A program made the translations under genes and the position numbers. Shown here piece after piece: positions 11,137 to 51,947 of a DNA stretch of 63,070 nucleotides; positions within the stretch are counted from its first letter, which is position 1; each line of letters opens with the position of its first letter. Origin of the DNA: an uncultured Bacteroidota bacterium (lineage in GTDB: Bacteria; Bacteroidota; Bacteroidia; 2-12-FULL-35-15); the NCBI GenBank assembly GCA_903847205.1, contig CAINDA010000066.1:1-63070 (forward strand), given 5' to 3'. Under the pieces are notes generated by a model. The model had not been told where the DNA came from, ran no database searches, and was given only the letters and a program-made list of their open reading frames with translations.

Positions 11137-11240
11137 AGGCAGTATAAAAAACGGCTGTTCTTTAAATTAAAATTTCAGATGAGAATTACAAAATTATTTT
11201 TCAAATAATTCCTAAAATCAGTCCATCTCAAAAATCAAAT

Positions 11241-37407: not shown

Positions 37408-37578
37408 TCTGCCTGAATAATTTTCTTCATTCAAAGAATTGAGAATCATTTTATAAATTTTTTATCATTCAATTTTTATGAATGATAAACATAAAAAGTC
37501 AATTTACTGAATCTCACACATAATCCTCTCCTTGAAAAAGGAAGCGGCTGTTTATATTTCAAATTGCTATAAATAAAA

Positions 37579-41521: not shown

Positions 41522-42919
41522 TTAATTTCTTTTTATCAGTTCATTTTTCAAAGGCTCAACAAAAGTATCAATATCACCGGCGCCCAATGTGAGAAGCACT
41601 TCCAGCCTGCGTCTGCTTACATTCTCAACTAAATCTTTTTTCTGGCAGATACTTTTATCAGCTGATTTCATTTTATCCAGAAGCATTTTCGAATTCACAC
41701 CTTCAATGGGGAGTTCGCGTGCAGGATAGATTTCCATCAATATACATTCATCCAATAAATCAAGACTTTTTGCAAAATCATCGGCAAAATCCCGTGTACG
41801 TGTAAATAAATGCGGCTGAAATATGCCGGTGATTTTTTTGCCGGGATACATTTCTTTTGCAGAATTAATCGCAGCTTTCAGCTCTTCGGGATGATGCGCA
41901 TAATCATCAATAAACACCAGCTTATCAGTTTTGATCTGATAATCAAAACGTCTTTTTACGCCGCGAAAAGTTCTCAGAGCTTCACGAATTGTCTCTTCCG
42001 GAACTTTCATCAAACATGAAGCTGCAATTGCTGCAACAGAATTTTCCACATTATGCAGGCCGGGCAGGCCCAAGGTTAAATTTTTAAACACCCCTGAAGG
42101 TGTTGTTACTTCGTATTGATAGGCTGCATTTTCAATTTTAATATTCTGTGCAAAATAATCGGCTGTTGTATCGTTTACAGAATAAGTTAGTGCGTACTTA
42201 CCAGAAGCAATGGTGTTTTGAATGCTCTTTTTCAAAATCAATTTCGATTTTACCTGGCTTGCAAATAAAGAGTAAGACTCTTCCATGTATTTTTTATCGC
42301 CGTAAATATCAAGGTGATCTGCATCTGTTGAAGTAATAACAGCTATTTCAGGATGAAGGGTTAAAAAAGAGCGATCATATTCATCGGCTTCAACAACGGT
42401 AGGAGTTGAAAGTTGAAAGTTCAAAGTTGCGAGTTTTAAATTTTCACTCAGTAATAAGTTTGTATTATAATTTTGAGTGATACCCCCTAAAAATGCGGAA
42501 GGATCAAGGTCTGCTGTTTTTAAAATATGTGCAATTAAAGATGATGTGGTAGTTTTTCCATGTGTGCCTGCAACAGCTATTGTATAGGAGTTTTCAGTAA
42601 TCATCCCTAATACCTCTGCACGCTTCTTGATATTAAAATTATGATCTCTAAAATAATTCAACTCTTTATGATCATTAGGTATTGCCGGGGTGTAAACAAT
42701 CAGGATTTCGGATTTCGGATTTTTGATTTCGGATTTTATAAGATTAAGATCATCTTCAAAATGAATATCTATTCCTTCCGCAATTAATTTCTCAGTAAGC
42801 TTTGTAGGGGTTTTATCATACCCGCTCACACTTTTACCCATTGCGTTAAAATAACGCGCCAGAGCACTCATTCCGATGCCGCCTATTCCTAAAAAATATA
42901 TGTATTGTACGTTTTTCAA
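41522..42919 (-). CDS. murC: UDP-N-acetylmuramate--L-alanine ligase
   Basis: The 465 residues have FLGIGGIGMSALA (9-21), the ATP loop AGTHGKTTT (about 115-123), EADEYDRSF and DDYAHHPEEL. It adds L-Ala to UDP-MurNAc. The start is a TTG (42919) with no usable ATG; the purine-rich AAGGGGAGAGG six bases upstream comes from a palindromic element. Two low-complexity words familiar from intergenic DNA are translated inside it (KSEIKNPKSE at 62-71, LATLNFQLST near 165). Confidence 0.96.
   Translation of the reverse strand: MKNVQYIYFLGIGGIGMSALARYFNAMGKSVSGYDKTPTKLTEKLIAEGIDIHFEDDLNLIKSEIKNPKSEILIVYTPAIPNDHKELNYFRDHNFNIKKRAEVLGMITENSYTIAVAGTHGKTTTSSLIAHILKTADLDPSAFLGGITQNYNTNLLLSENLKLATLNFQLSTPTVVEADEYDRSFLTLHPEIAVITSTDADHLDIYGDKKYMEESYSLFASQVKSKLILKKSIQNTIASGKYALTYSVNDTTADYFAQNIKIENAAYQYEVTTPSGVFKNLTLGLPGLHNVENSVAAIAASCLMKVPEETIREALRTFRGVKRRFDYQIKTDKLVFIDDYAHHPEELKAAINSAKEMYPGKKITGIFQPHLFTRTRDFADDFAKSLDLLDECILMEIYPARELPIEGVNSKMLLDKMKSADKSICQKKDLVENVSRRRLEVLLTLGAGDIDTFVEPLKNELIKRN
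42403..42432 (-). repeat. Low-complexity AACTTTCAACTTT-type words translated within murC
   Basis: The plus-strand run GAGTTGAAAGTTGAAAGTTC is of a type usual in intergenic DNA; it encodes NFQLSTP before the conserved EADEYD. A second run, GGATTTCGGATTTCGG and its neighbour GATTTCGG (42703-42737), encodes KSEIKNPKSE. Confidence 0.6.
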
Positions 42920-43053
42920 AAAGTACCTCTCCCCTTAATCCCCTCTCCCCATGAGAGGGGGCGAAACTTAATCCGCTGTTTATATTTCATTTTTATTTAA
43001 TCTACCCACCTAAAATCCTCTCCCTTGAGGGGAGAGGATTAAGGAGAGGGGTA
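42920..43053. repeat. MITE-like palindromic element A between murC and murG
   Basis: The two ends are near-inverted copies of CCTCTCC-TTAATC-CTCTCCCC, each able to form its own hairpin (CCCCATGAGAGGGG, CCCTTGAGGGG), around an AT-rich core of about 60 bases. One end gives the murC ribosome-binding site; the other supplies the murG stop codon and last residues. Confidence 0.85.
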
Positions 43054-44157
43054 TTTATTATTTATCAAACTCAACACCTCATTCGCAATCACATTAGCTG
43101 AATTTTGAAATGCCAAACGTCCGATATTTTCGGACAGTTTAGAACATTGCTCTTTATCATTTATTAAAGCAATTGTTTCATTACAAAGTTTTTCACGCGC
43201 TTCACTGTCTTTAATTAAAACTGCGGCTTTATAAGTTACCAATGCCATTGCATTTTTTGTTTGATGATCTTCTGCAACATTCGGTGAAGGAATTAAAATG
43301 CAAGGCTTTTTTACTAAACATAATTCAGATACAGAACTAGCACCCGCCCTTGATATCACGATATCCGCAACGGCGTACGCATAATCCATTTTTTGAATAA
43401 AATCAAAAGCTTTAATTCCCCGGCCTTCATATCCCTCAACAGCAAGTTTCGCAGTTTCATAAAATCCTTTTCCTGTCTGCCAAATCAGCTGAATATGTTT
43501 TTTATCAAATGCTTCTAAACATTTTATTATACTTTCATTAATTGTTCTTGCACCCAGGCTTCCGCCGATTACCAATATTGTTTTTTTATCCGGACTTAAA
43601 CCGAAAGCTTCTAATCCTCTGTCTCGCTTGCCTTCCAAACTTAATATATCCTGACGGATAGGATTGCCGGTAAGTAAAATTTTTTCTTTCGGAAAATATT
43701 TTTCCATTCCGGAATAGGCAACACAAATCCTATCCACTTTTTTGGAAAGGATTTTATTTGTGATGCCTGGATATGAATTCTGTTCTTGAATTAATGTAAC
43801 AATACCTTTTGCAGCAGCAACCTGCAGCATGGGACCGCTTGCAAAACCGCCTGTTCCGATAACTGCATCAGGCGAAAACGATTTAAGAATTTTTTTGGCT
43901 TTCATTAAACTGCTGATCAGTTTAAAAGGAAATGCTAAATTGGATATTGTTAATTTACGCTGAAATCCGCTGATCCAGAGCCCTTCAATTTTGTAACCCG
44001 CTGCAGGAACTTTTTCCATTTCCATTTTGCCTTCTGCACCAACAAATAAAAACTGCGTATCAGGCCGTAAAGCCTTAATGGCATTGGCGATGGCAATGGC
44101 GGGAAATATATGCCCGCCTGTTCCCCCTCCGCTGACAATTATTTTAAGCGGCTTCAA
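43039..44157 (-). CDS. murG: UDP-N-acetylglucosamine--(lipid I) N-acetylglucosaminyltransferase
   Basis: The protein has SGGGTGGHIFPAIAIANA near the start, GGSLGARTIN and SRAGASSVSEL, all MurG hallmarks; it makes lipid II at the inner membrane face. The start used is TTG at 44157 (MKPLKIIVSGGG): GAAGGAGG lies 5 bases before it, whereas the longer frame needs a GTG at 44190 deep in ftsW. It overlaps ftsW by 14 bases. The last residues (KYPSP) and stop are encoded by a palindromic element. Confidence 0.96.
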   Translation of the reverse strand: MKPLKIIVSGGGTGGHIFPAIAIANAIKALRPDTQFLFVGAEGKMEMEKVPAAGYKIEGLWISGFQRKLTISNLAFPFKLISSLMKAKKILKSFSPDAVIGTGGFASGPMLQVAAAKGIVTLIQEQNSYPGITNKILSKKVDRICVAYSGMEKYFPKEKILLTGNPIRQDILSLEGKRDRGLEAFGLSPDKKTILVIGGSLGARTINESIIKCLEAFDKKHIQLIWQTGKGFYETAKLAVEGYEGRGIKAFDFIQKMDYAYAVADIVISRAGASSVSELCLVKKPCILIPSPNVAEDHQTKNAMALVTYKAAVLIKDSEAREKLCNETIALINDKEQCSKLSENIGRLAFQNSANVIANEVLSLINNKYPSP

Positions 44158-45295
44158 GAGAACCTCCTTCCTGTGTAGTTTCACTTTCACGGCTTACGCT
44201 TAATATCATACCAATTGCAATACTGGTGAACCAGATGGATGTGCCTCCCATGCTCACTAATGGCAAGGGCTGGCCTGTCACAGGAAATAAATTTACTGCA
44301 ACAGCCATGTTTATCATTGCTTGAAAAACTAAACTGAATGTAAGCCCTATTGCAAGCAGGCTTCCGAATGTACGCTCGCTTTTATTTGCAATCCGTACAC
44401 CGCGGAATAATAAAACGAGGTATAAAAAAATAATAATAACGGCTGTAATAAGCCCCCACTCTTCAATTACAATGGCAAAAATAAAATCAGAAGATGCCTG
44501 GGGCAGAAAATTACGCTGCATGCTGTTACCGGGACCTTTACCAATTATACCGCCTGTTGCAATAGCTATTTTAGCCTGCTCTGCCTGAAAGTTGCTTTCG
44601 CTGTCGCCTTTGGAGTAATTTTCTATTCGGGCTTTCCATGTTGCACCACGTGGTATTGCATTCGGAAAATAAAAAATCAAAACAATTATTAATGACCCGA
44701 AAACAAGACCTGATCCGATGAGCATAAGAAGATATTTTGCATTCATCCTGCCAATGAACATCAACACAAAACTTGTCATAAACAATAAAGCAGCAGTAGA
44801 AAAATTCGCCGGCAGAATTAAAGCACATACAATAACAACCGGTATAACAATAGGCAGAAATGCGGTTTTAAAATCCTTTATCTGATTTTGTTTGATTGCA
44901 AGCATACGTGCTACATAGGTTATTAACGCAAGTTTTGCAAAATCAGAAGTTTGAAAAGTAAGTGATGTTCCCGGTATTACCAGCCAGCGGCTTGCATCAC
45001 CGGCGCTTACTCCTTTTAATAATGTGTATAATAAAAGAGGTGCTGCCAAAAACACAGCAAGCTGCGAGATCCTTGAGAAGTAGGAATATTTAACTTTATG
45101 TACAAAGTAAATCAGTAAAATTCCCGACCCAACAATAAATAAATGTTTTATAAGGTACGCTGAAGTATCGCCTTCTTTATACCTGTAAGCGATTGCAACC
45201 ACTGAGCTGTAAACAACTAAAACAGATAAAAGCGAAAGCAGCAGAACTACCGTCCAGATTACTTTATCACCTTTTATGTATTTGAATAAATTCAT
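44144..45295 (-). CDS. ftsW: Lipid II polymerase FtsW (SEDS family)
   Basis: The 383 residues have about ten membrane segments and SEDS-family signatures: TFQTSDFAKLALI, GPGNSMQRNFLPQASSDFIFA and MGGTSIWFTSIAIG. It polymerises septal glycan with FtsI. Its ATG (45295) is preceded after 7 bases by AAGGAGAGGGG, part of palindromic element B. It overlaps murG by 14 bases. Confidence 0.97.
   Translation of the reverse strand: MNLFKYIKGDKVIWTVVLLLSLLSVLVVYSSVVAIAYRYKEGDTSAYLIKHLFIVGSGILLIYFVHKVKYSYFSRISQLAVFLAAPLLLYTLLKGVSAGDASRWLVIPGTSLTFQTSDFAKLALITYVARMLAIKQNQIKDFKTAFLPIVIPVVIVCALILPANFSTAALLFMTSFVLMFIGRMNAKYLLMLIGSGLVFGSLIIVLIFYFPNAIPRGATWKARIENYSKGDSESNFQAEQAKIAIATGGIIGKGPGNSMQRNFLPQASSDFIFAIVIEEWGLITAVIIIFLYLVLLFRGVRIANKSERTFGSLLAIGLTFSLVFQAMINMAVAVNLFPVTGQPLPLVSMGGTSIWFTSIAIGMILSVSRESETTQEGGSLEAA
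44163..44170 (-). promoter_or_regulatory. Strong Shine-Dalgarno site setting the TTG start of murG
   Basis: GAAGGAGG (minus strand, 44170-44163) stands 5 bases before the TTG at 44157, inside the ftsW coding sequence. Strong SD sites are uncommon in Bacteroidota, so this one is informative. Confidence 0.8.
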
Positions 45296-45475
45296 AAAAA
45301 CACCCCTCTCCTTAATCCTCTCCTCTCAAGGGAGAGAGTTGCTGGTGAGTAACTCAGCTTTATTTTAATAATTAAAATATATTTTCAAACAATTCAAACA
45401 ATCATTTATTAATAACACATTCAGCATTTGCACCGCCTCCTCTCCTGCGGAGAGGAGATGAAGAGGAGAGGTGTT
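45296..45475. repeat. MITE-like palindromic element B between ftsW and murD
   Basis: The left end (AAACACCCCTCTCC, then TTAATCCTCTCC) and the right end (reverse complement AAACACCTCTCC, then TCTTCATCTCC) are terminal inverted repeats around an AT-rich core of about 110 bases. It fills the whole gap: from just after the murD stop to the ftsW ATG, providing the ftsW ribosome-binding site. Confidence 0.85.
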
Positions 45476-46903
45476 TTACAATCCTCGAACAGCCTGTTTA
45501 AACTGAGTTCCGCGATCTTCGTAATCTTCAAACAAATCGAAACTTGCGCAGGCAGGTGATAACAAAACTGTATCTCCTTTTTTACCCAGCTTGTATGCCT
45601 GATCCACAGCCTGCTTCGCAGAATTTGCTTCCAGAATAGTTTCTACTATACCTCCAAACGCTTTAATAATTTTTTTGTTATCTGCACCTAAACAGATAAT
45701 TGCTTTTACTTTTTCTTTTACCAAATCATTCAGCATCGAATAATCATTACCCTTGTCAACACCGCCAAGAATAAGAATTACAGGATTATTCATGCTTTCT
45801 AAAGCATACCAGGTTGAATTTACATTGGTTGCTTTTGAGTCATTGATAAACTCAATACCATGCACATTGCCAACCAGCTCCAAACGATGGCCGATGTTAT
45901 GAAAATCGGAAAGACTTTCGCGGATTGTTTCCTTCCTGATTTCAACCAATTTACTGGTAACTCCAGCTGCCATTGAATTGTAGATGTTGTGTCTGCCTTG
46001 CAGTGCTAGTTCTTGAATTGTCATTGATAAAGGATTTGTGTTATTTGTATTAATAATTATTTGATTGTTTTCGTTTAAGTATGCCCCTTGTTCAACTTTT
46101 TGTTTAAGAGAAATCGGGTATTGTTTTGCTTTGATAATTCTTTTTGTCAGTTCCTTCGCAATAATTTCATCATCGATACAAAAAATAAAAGAATCACTTT
46201 CTGTTTGATTGTTTATGATTCGAAATTTTGAATCAACATACTTCTGCATGTCATACTCATATCTGTCTAAGTGATCCGGCGTGATATTCAGAAGGACTGC
46301 TATATCTGCCTTAAACTCAAACATGCCGTCTAATTGAAAACTGCTTAACTCCAGTACATAGAAGTCAAAGTCATTCGCATCAGGCCCGCATGCATTTTCA
46401 GCAACCTGCATTGCAAAACTTTTTCCAACATTACCGCCAAGTGCCACATTCAATCCAGCTTTTGTCAGTATGTGATAAATAAGCAATGTTGTTGTTGTTT
46501 TTCCGTTGCTTCCAGTGATACAGATTTTTTTTGCTTTAGTGTAACGACCTGCAAACTCAATTTCTGAAATCACCGGAATCCCGTTTTTATGCAGTGCTTT
46601 TATAAGCTCTGCTTTATCAGGAATACCGGGACTTTTAACAACTTCCGAAGCATTTAAAATCAATGCTTCTGTGTGCTTTTCTTCTTCCCAGCTGATACCA
46701 TTTTTTAAAAGAACGTCTTTGTATTTATTTTTTATTTTTCCTTTGTCAGACAGGAAAACATCAAATCCTTTTTTCTGAGCAAGTACTGCGGTGCCGACTC
46801 CGCTCTCTCCGCCTCCTAAAACAACCAAGCGATACCCCTCTCCTGCTCTCCCCGCAGGGGAGAGAGTTTGTGATGTGTTACTATGTTTTATTTTTTCACT
46901 CAT
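45476..46903 (-). CDS. murD: UDP-N-acetylmuramoylalanine--D-glutamate ligase
   Basis: The protein has VVLGGGESGVGTAVLAQ at the front, the ATP loop ITGSNGKTTTT, FVLELSSFQL and LNITPDHLDRY, as in MurD; it adds D-Glu to UDP-MurNAc-L-Ala. Two starts are possible. From the ATG at 46903 the protein has 475 residues, including an odd leader (TLSPAGRAGEG, residues 13-23) encoded by palindromic element C. From the TTG at 46828 (450 residues) it begins MVVLGGG, with AGGAGAGGGG six bases upstream, also within element C. Family members begin close to the LVVLGGG strand, which favours the shorter form. Confidence 0.94.
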   Translation of the reverse strand: MSEKIKHSNTSQTLSPAGRAGEGYRLVVLGGGESGVGTAVLAQKKGFDVFLSDKGKIKNKYKDVLLKNGISWEEEKHTEALILNASEVVKSPGIPDKAELIKALHKNGIPVISEIEFAGRYTKAKKICITGSNGKTTTTLLIYHILTKAGLNVALGGNVGKSFAMQVAENACGPDANDFDFYVLELSSFQLDGMFEFKADIAVLLNITPDHLDRYEYDMQKYVDSKFRIINNQTESDSFIFCIDDEIIAKELTKRIIKAKQYPISLKQKVEQGAYLNENNQIIINTNNTNPLSMTIQELALQGRHNIYNSMAAGVTSKLVEIRKETIRESLSDFHNIGHRLELVGNVHGIEFINDSKATNVNSTWYALESMNNPVILILGGVDKGNDYSMLNDLVKEKVKAIICLGADNKKIIKAFGGIVETILEANSAKQAVDQAYKLGKKGDTVLLSPACASFDLFEDYEDRGTQFKQAVRGL

Positions 46904-46968
46904 CAATAGTTAATCATTCTTTTTTTCTCTGCTTCTCTCTCCCTTGCGGGGAAGGCTATAGAGAGATA
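46832..46968. repeat. MITE-like palindromic element C spanning the mraY-murD junction and the murD N-terminus
   Basis: One end (46833-46866, ATACCCCTCTCCTGC then TCTCCCCGCAGGGG) and the other (46933-46968) are imperfect inverted copies. The element begins directly after the mraY stop and extends into murD, where it is translated if the ATG at 46903 is used. Confidence 0.8.
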
Positions 46969-48240
46969 TTATCTTAACTTCAATGTTACAATTGTTAAAA
47001 CCGCCAGCATTATTCCAATAATCCAAAACCTTGAAACAATTTTTGCTTCGTGCATACCAAGCTTTTGATAGTGATGATGGAGCGGAGCCATTTTTAAAAA
47101 ACGGTGTTCACGCGCATATTCAATTCCGAATTTTTTCTTTCTTCGTTTGAAATAATATACCTGCAGCATTACTGATACATTTTCTACAAGAAATACTCCG
47201 CAGAGAATAGGTATAAGAAGTTCTTTACGGATTGCAATTGCAAAAACAGCAATGATGCCTCCCAGCGCCAAACTGCCGGTATCGCCCATAAACACCTGGG
47301 CAGGGTATGAGTTGTACCATAAAAACCCGACACATGCTCCAACAAATGCGGCAATATAAACCACGAGCTCACCTGAATTGGGGATGTACATGATGTTGAG
47401 GTAATCGGCAAATATTCTGTTACCAGAAACGTAAGCCAATATCCCAAGTGTAACACCTATAATTGCAGAGGTTCCCGTAGCAAGGCCGTCAATCCCGTCT
47501 GTTATATTTGCACCGTTGGATACTGCAGTAACAATTATAATTACAATTGGAATAAATATCAGCCAAGCCCATTTTTGAAAGCCCTCTCCTAAAAATGCAA
47601 GCAGCCATGAATAATCAAATTCATTATTTTTCACAAATGGTATAGTTGTTTTCATAGACTTGGTATCCACAGTTGAATACTGCGGCATCCGTGCAGCAAG
47701 CTGTGAAGAGTCGTTTACCATTTCAATAGTGTAGGCACTTTTTCCGCTGCTGTGAACGCGGTCGCGGACAACAACATCATTATTAAAGTAAAGGGTAAGG
47801 CCTACAATTAAGCCTATACCGACCTGACCTAACACTTTAAATTTACCGGCTAATCCTTCTTTGTGTTTTTTAAATACCTTGATGTAATCATCCAGAAAGC
47901 CGATAGCACCAAGCCACACCGTTGAAAGGAGCATTAACAGAATATACACATTGTGTAATTTTGCAAATAACAATGTAGGTATAACAATAGCTGAAAGTAT
48001 AATTAAACCGCCCATTGTAGGGGTTCCTTTCTTTTCTAACTGACCATCTAATCCTAAATCACGGACAGTTTCACCAACCTGTTTTTTGTGAAGAAGGTTA
48101 ATGATACGTTTACCCAACACCATTGAAATCAATAGGGATACAATGAGCGCCATTGCTGCACGGAATGAAATGTATTGGAATACTCCGGCTCCCGGAAAAT
48201 CAAATTGTTTGTCTAAAAAATGGAATAAGTAGTAGAACAT
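46969..48240 (-). CDS. mraY: Phospho-N-acetylmuramoyl-pentapeptide transferase
   Basis: The 423 residues have about ten membrane helices and the MraY motifs [25 protein letters not shown] and [11 protein letters not shown]. It moves phospho-MurNAc-pentapeptide to undecaprenyl phosphate, making lipid I. The longer periplasmic loop (about 150-200) is normal for Bacteroidota. It overlaps murE by one base (TAATG), suggesting coupled translation. Confidence 0.98.
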
Positions 48241-51850: not shown

Positions 51851-51947
51851 TCTTTTTTTCCTCAAGTCCTATCCTACTCGGAAAAGGGAGGGATTTTAAA
51901 ATTCAGCTGTTAATTATTTTTTATTTCTAAATGCTTTCTGATTTCTA

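Follow-up and report, generated by a model that had tools for sequence, protein, structure and literature searches.

Palindromic repeat doublets resembling mobile REPIN/MITE elements occupy three gene junctions in the dcw cluster of a Bacteroidota genome

The division and cell wall (dcw) cluster of an uncultured Bacteroidota bacterium carries, in the stretch from mraY to murC on the minus strand, three palindromic elements termed A, B and C, each consisting of two inverted hairpin units whose tails point outward. The window, which denotes the entire analysed stretch of 63,070 nucleotides, is contig C66 of a 5.49-Mb genome in 72 contigs. The three elements are missing from the closest relative, are part of a scattered repeat family and hug gene boundaries, and their occurrence in the dcw cluster is a real and unusual placement of mobile palindromes. 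As best explanation of the whole, to which we assign a probability of about 0.7, the sequences and predicted folds suggest that A–C are non-autonomous mobile palindromes resembling REPINs (doublets of repetitive extragenic palindromes, REPs) or miniature inverted-repeat transposable elements (MITEs), which would fold away and thereby keep the adjoining stop and start codons together. Their features are as follows, with R1 denoting the covariance model of the family and SD the Shine-Dalgarno sequence.

42919..43058, no strand assigned: element A, inverted REP-II doublet at the murG/murC junction (genes on the minus strand); R1 bits 57.2 and 67.3; RNA fold z -4.09; units 42919-42979 (-) and 42998-43058 (+).
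45296..45478, no strand assigned: element B, inverted REP-II doublet at the murD/ftsW junction; R1 bits 60.9 and 54; RNA fold z -4.70; units 45296-45356 (-) and 45418-45478 (+).
46828..46975, no strand assigned: element C, inverted REP-II doublet at the mraY/murD junction; R1 bits 44.3 and 25.8; RNA fold z -5.56; units 46828-46884 (-) and, decayed, 46917-46975 (+).
43039..43041, minus strand: murG stop codon TAA from element A; protein end NNKYPSP; tail class STOP at -14.
46901..46903, minus strand: probable murD start ATG, upstream of the second unit of element C in reading order; open frame MSEKIKHSNTSQTLSPAGRAGEGYRLVVLGG; parallels in loci L080, L173, L176 and L181.
42926..42936, minus strand: SD-like tail AAGGGGAGAGG, a sequence feature 6 nt 5' of the murC TTG 42919; -10.8 kcal/mol to the 16S tail of congeners.
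45303..45313, minus strand: SD-like tail AAGGAGAGGGG, a sequence feature 7 nt 5' of the ftsW ATG 45295; -18.6 kcal/mol; predicted to base-pair with the tail of the second unit.
46835..46844, minus strand: SD-like tail AGGAGAGGGG, 6 nt 5' of the in-frame murD TTG 46828; -12.9 kcal/mol; probably codons and not a ribosome-binding site.

The repeating unit spans about 55 nt. It opens with a 5' arm, for which AAGTTTCGCC or ACTCACC is frequent, continues with a CTCTCC-loop-GGAGAG hairpin and closes with the tail ATTAAGGGGAGAGGT or variants of it (alignment A1). A sister family, REP-I, combines the hairpin CTCTCCTTTTTCAAGGAGAG with the tail GGCCGGGGGTGAGGT. An initial annotation of the window had described CTCTCC/GGAGAG hairpins at the three dcw junctions, and shuffled sequences, a reversed-pattern control and the fold z scores confirm that these exceed chance. 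Within the window, CCTCTCCTTAATCCTCTCC with up to three mismatches is found twice compared to zero times in each of 100 shuffles, and in the genome the pattern CTCTCC-N2-14-GGAGAG yields 47 sites compared to a single one for its reversed version. The same pattern, which also catches other loop types, is present in 34 of the 36 genomes of the genus at 0–98 sites per genome. In a census with R1, which was built from 21 units all originating from the organism itself, at least 35 units were detected at E < 1e-6 among the best 150 of 573 candidates, and copies may have been missed since only these 150 were scored. Five of these units reside in A–C, which contain one additional weak unit. Inverted doublets number 18 in this genome and the congeneric genomes G016 and G008 taken together. 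At gathering thresholds, a scan of the window with Rfam matched a tRNA alone. Two further fragments had been described as resembling the family. The one at 51870-51895 found no counterpart with R1, which at E up to 0.01 matched only the six units of A–C in the window, and the one at 37515-37555 by eye resembles half a unit of the sister family.

37523..37546, no strand assigned: possible decayed half unit of REP-I (CTCTCCTTGAAAAAGGA), by eye.

Two adjacent genes that resemble each other hold an in-frame unit (FPNPGNGNLSLTLSTGEGNVSVYNVLGE) at matching positions, about 200 nt ahead of the stop (L022:9583-9641 and 11148-11206).

The recent acquisition of the elements is indicated by the closest relative examined (L075/L180), whose MurG is 88–89% identical and which is devoid of an element at any of the three sites. 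Its aligned gaps at the three junctions measure 16, 10 and 18 nt including stop codons, with stop-to-start spacers of 1, 7 and 9 nt, which are so short that an insertion sparing both genes must end beside a start codon. Among the aligned junction rows, which include same-genome duplicates (L075/L180, L082/L181 and L085/L174), elements are found in 6/30, 1/33 (ftsW) and 4/32 (murC). By eye, no target-site duplication is evident at the three pairs of filled and empty dcw sites.

The proximity to gene boundaries extends to the family as a whole. In 933 kb of the genome, mostly covering regions fetched because repeats were present there, 49 model matches were reduced to 38 units by removal of 11 weak or sister-family matches. 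Eighteen of these face a stop codon and six a start codon, seven form part of an N-terminus in frame and seven are located inside genes. All 18 STOP-facing tails end within 15 nt of the stop (offsets -14 to +9) and five of the six START-facing ones no more than 20 nt from the start, for which random intergenic placement would expect 8% and 9%, respectively. In G016 and G008, whose regions were chosen among the matches listed for the hairpin pattern, 37 units were retained from 48 matches (the 11 removed belonging to loci L080, L173 and L176, L181:12983, L188:3925 and the contig-end L201:18), with 13/17 STOP-facing and 9/11 START-facing tails near the boundary, four N-terminal and five internal units. 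The tail is closer to the boundary than the inner end in 7/7 singlets of the genome and in 13/17 in G016 and G008. When the distance of copies to start codons is inspected, as the initial annotation had recommended, nearness turns out not to be start-specific: because STOP-facing tails are equally near and equally strong in their pairing to the anti-SD, nearness to starts constitutes a special case of nearness to boundaries.

Two other accounts of this arrangement have to be weighed. The hairpin following a stop codon might be kept for a role in the mRNA, where it would slow terminating ribosomes or stabilise the upstream message. Such a role would fit the strict placement of the 18 STOP-facing tails and the fact that all seven singlets of the genome face a stop, and a passage of PMC12306157 provides a precedent in E. 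coli REPs located within 15 nt of stop codons. It fits poorly with the seven units inside genes and the seven at N-termini, and the variable presence of dcw elements among species of the genus makes a needed role in the mRNA less likely, so that we regard this explanation as rather unlikely. We give similarly little credit to a scenario where the mobilising enzyme merely targets sequences that are common at gene boundaries, with selection playing no part. The flanks beyond the tail are often T-rich by eye and the murD start bears units in five lineages, as would be expected for such a preference, yet no fixed target sequence was extracted, and junctions as short as those of the closest relative give no means of telling targeting from purifying selection.

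In the predicted RNA structures, A, B and C each close on themselves, tail with tail, and the mean probability of pairing between downstream and upstream tail amounts to 0.81 over the 18 doublets. With its two tails paired, the insert would fold into a long stem, at whose foot stop and start codons are predicted to be drawn together to nearly the distance of the ancestral junction (1–9 nt in the closest relative), which may explain why inserts persist in the dcw cluster. The SD-like word would simply correspond to the consensus of the tail, mostly hidden in this stem, and would not act as the normal initiation signal.

Beyond their position between genes, the elements appear to contribute coding sequence. 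The murG frame terminates in the TAA of a unit of element A, which, as judged from the reading frame, supplies the murG stop codon. The same built-in stop (offset -14) is used by 3/18 STOP-facing units in this genome and 2/17 in G016 and G008. That REPs are found near stop codons and within open reading frames (ORFs) and may supply stop codons is already described in passages of PMC3733652 and PMC12306157. In the case of murD, element C presents GGGGTATCGCTTG where the gene of the relative L075 starts with ATGAAACGCTTG, and an open frame runs from ATG 46903 across a unit of the element. For this reason, TTG 46828, at which the initial annotation had placed the start, is neither the sole nor the likeliest candidate. 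An in-frame unit is found at the murD start of four more lineages (L080, L173, L181/L082 and L176). In L173, the 75 nt past the tail contain no in-frame ATG, GTG or TTG, so that, barring a non-canonical start, translation must pass through the unit. Based on these frames, translation of murD likely starts at ATG 46903 and proceeds through one unit, resulting in a MurD with an element-encoded N-terminus.

Comparable arrangements are found in other genes. In a biotin-carboxylase gene, an in-frame element was detected by the model in L028 and recognised by eye in L239 and L240. These three genomes lack an ATG, GTG or TTG between tail and conserved core, while in L241, L242 and L243 an ATG is located just 5' of this core. 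In genes encoding ArsC (L027), IspD (L203), an amidohydrolase (L010) and a polysaccharide-export protein (L169), the first ATG, GTG or TTG is found 40–66 nt past the tail or is missing within 75 nt. In the remaining N-terminal cases, a TTG lies at most 6 nt from the tail, which makes an internal start possible. In 11/11 N-terminal cases the read-through frame begins 63–73 nt before the end of the tail, with the class itself being defined by a range of 20–110 nt. Units in L026, L030, L183 and L198, the first two being PorP/SprF genes, encode residues similar to FPLLWRGLGRG ahead of a hydrophobic stretch that by eye resembles a signal peptide.

REP-like palindromes are common in bacteria, and passages of the cited literature propose the REP-associated tyrosine transposase (RAYT) as their mobiliser. 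The RAYT model (E up to 0.001) matches 29 of the 36 genomes of the genus including the one studied here, 23 of them over the cut-off, as would be required if the units were ordinary REPs mobilised by such enzymes. Genes with the domains Y1_Tnp and REP_Tyr_transpos exist, but no hairpin of the CTCTCC/GGAGAG design was found in 27 loci around RAYT-model matches, a set that covers part of the matches in the genus and in which several loci overlap or contain incomplete genes. The RAYT-type gene of the organism itself (L224:2119-2902 on contig C44 of genome G000) bears a different palindrome, GACCTGACAGGTTTT..AAAACCTGTCAGGTC, on either side and, in frame, within its sequence. On the basis of these loci, we rejected RAYT as candidate and consider mobilisation by this route improbable. 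Atypical structures that lack GT[AG]G are reported for RAYT classes of Bacteroidetes in a passage of PMC6006769.

A different candidate is provided by DUF559 proteins, Vsr-like endonucleases whose genes frequently lie between inverted palindromes, some of them similar in design to A–C. In the genome, a 116-residue DUF559 gene (L021:4791-5141 on contig C46; PF04480, E 1.7e-36) is located between inverted REP-I units, and a neighbouring copy devoid of the gene shares the sub-terminal GGAGAGGGAGTAAAAAAATAAATC by eye. We consider gene and units as candidate autonomous form of the repeats. Among PDB chains, the protein resembles 3hrl (E 5.9e-19), and a weaker similarity connects it to the mobile intron protein 3r3p (E 0.017). 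In the metH genes of two species, L004:9561-13694 on contig C6 of the same genome and L192:782-4927 in G016, a single open frame encompasses a DUF559 domain and units inside the activation domain. Starting from the DUF559 protein only, 45 plasmid records matched, of which 23, hand-picked across genera, were fetched and together with two viral contigs make up 25 loci; a phage search returned three further DUF559 records outside this set. In 16 of the 25 loci, inverted flanks score above all 60 shuffles (L277 barely), and 12 exceed a z of 5. Control regions of five of the same plasmids show such flanks for 1/26 small genes and 13/300 random windows (zero and one with z > 5), and Bacteroidota loci for 5/133 small genes (three above z 5). 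R1 matches 11 of the 25 loci (22 matches in 57 kb at E up to 0.05), including seven of the 16, compared to a single match in 150 kb taken elsewhere from five of the plasmids. In L279, L281 and L294, these matches are found on both sides of the gene with their tails pointing outward, and in L284 they are located about 400 nt or more from it. A flank can hold an entire doublet, as in S. meliloti (L292), and the palindromes flanking DUF559 genes of Pseudanabaena, Picosynechococcus, Sphingobium and Novosphingobium have sequences other than that of REP-II. Two palindrome-flanked DUF559 genes (L281 and L293) are located inside tight plasmid operons, between paaD and paaZ and among genes for NAD(P) transhydrogenase subunits.

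The correlation between DUF559 genes and palindromes makes the endonuclease a candidate for the enzyme that moves the units, which is at the same time the least certain step of the proposed mechanism and the most novel part of our findings. In a literature search, to which most subscription literature was outside reach, we found no work tying DUF559 to REP-like repeats. In PMC12907096, PMC6712171 and PMC9403480, DUF559 is treated in passages on Vsr-like nucleases, in a gene list and in a section on an intein, and these passages make no mention of such repeats.

Several observations weigh against the interpretation of A–C as folding mobile elements and its individual steps. Matched tails pair no better than tails taken from different doublets (p 0.23), which lends no support to selection for tail pairing; single units hug boundaries as well, which the fold model alone leaves unexplained; and tails are far off in 4/17 STOP-facing and 2/11 START-facing cases in G016 and G008. 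Gene starts were assigned by our own ORF caller and not by annotation, and TTG 46828 is a possible murD start in the window. With respect to the mobiliser, 9 of the 25 loci chosen by DUF559 contain no inverted flanks and in 9 of the 16 flanked loci the palindromes are unmatched by R1. Neither of the two metH loci passes the inverted-flank test, and the DUF559 examples from the genome itself do not represent an unbiased sample since their regions were fetched for their repeats.

The initial annotation had proposed that mobile repeats inserted into the dcw cluster became SD signals. Its insertions and SD-like words hold, and the spacings AAGGGGAGAGG-6-TTG, AAGGAGAGGGG-7-ATG and AGGAGAGGGG-6-TTG are exact. 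Since no 16S gene was found in the assembly, we have taken the anti-SD from congeners, whose 16S tail is GGAACACCUCCUUUCU in three of four cases and retains CCUCC in all four. The 16S 3' end, usually GGAUCACCUCC, reads GGAACACCUCC in the congeners L268-L270, and the unit tail with its flank, GAGGTGTT, is complementary to it. With the 16S tail of the congeners, the 20 nt preceding murC, ftsW and the internal TTG of murD pair at -10.8, -18.6 and -12.9 kcal/mol, which is not reached by any of 244 genes with unambiguous ATG start and no unit nearby. In relatives without elements, such words are mostly missing: the median is -4.0 kcal/mol in 28 murC-aligned rows (minimum -7.0), compared to -10.6 to -10.8 in the four element-bearing rows (three genomes, as L082 equals L181), and -3.1 in 32 ftsW rows, though one of them reaches -11.9. 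Over the three dcw junctions, element-free medians are -2.3, -3.1 and -4.0 kcal/mol.

A function of these tails in initiation, from which the TTG starts could profit, is nevertheless doubtful. SD sequences are avoided genome-wide: 16/244 genes pair at -4 kcal/mol or lower 5' of their start, whereas a mock window covering -60 to -40 gives 55/244 (p 4e-10, paired). While the word resides at proper spacing, START-facing tails (median -10.8, n=17) are no stronger than STOP-facing ones (-12.1, n=35; p 0.40), and the word is sequestered in the predicted fold. According to a passage of PMC9976891, the anti-SD of Bacteroidia is sequestered by the proteins bS21, bS18 and bS6, and few genes have a strong SD, with rpsU as main exception. 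The rpsU gene of this genome, tried as benchmark, shows no obvious SD upstream by eye. A role of the element tails as ribosome-binding sites for murC, ftsW and murD is thus not supported by these sequences and appears very unlikely.

Compared to known systems, the family shares with the REPINs and bacterial interspersed mosaic elements (BIMEs) of E. coli and Pseudomonas fluorescens its short hairpin units, which are arranged as inverted doublets (18 in our set), scattered as documented by the R1 census, located near stops and sometimes found in frame within ORFs. It differs by its tail GGGGAGAGGT / GGGGTGAGGT, by the lack of a GT[AG]G foot in alignment A1 as judged by eye, and in that no RAYT is flanked by the family in the 27 RAYT loci covered, several of which overlap. 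Like MITEs, the elements are small, with inverted ends and no ORF or transposase gene, and the REP-I copy devoid of a gene in L021 by eye resembles an internal-deletion derivative of its DUF559-carrying neighbour. In contrast to MITEs, their ends are hairpin units and the candidate partner is a nuclease instead of a DDE transposase. Rickettsia palindromic elements likewise reside in frame in genes for likely functional proteins, as described in a passage of PMC10969869, but probably represent a different element, and insertions of the A–C family gather at gene edges. Finally, the gene enclosed in L021 matches DUF559 and both PDB chains, whereas the cited passages discuss DUF559 in the context of Vsr-like nucleases, inteins and methylation and not of REP-like palindromes.

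Joining these observations leads to a more tentative proposal, which we regard as possible at somewhat less than even odds. Many palindromes of the form CCTCACCC-CCCTCTCC-loop-GGAGAGGG in Bacteroidota, Cyanobacteriota, Deinococcota and Pseudomonadota might be footprints of one mobile class that uses DUF559 instead of RAYT, with the dcw elements as miniature derivatives. Folding shut would give them entry into tight operon junctions. Ribosomes that terminate at the stop codon upstream could melt the stem and thereby free the SD-like tail, which would turn the element into a portable switch for translational coupling. A recurrent DUF559 partner, if true, would make the origin of another group of palindromes directly testable. 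The results also caution against taking purine-rich repeat ends for ribosome-binding sites. In the dcw cluster, they describe how an essential operon absorbs insertions at the edges of its genes, with a mobile repeat supplying a stop codon and probably the N-terminus of a protein.

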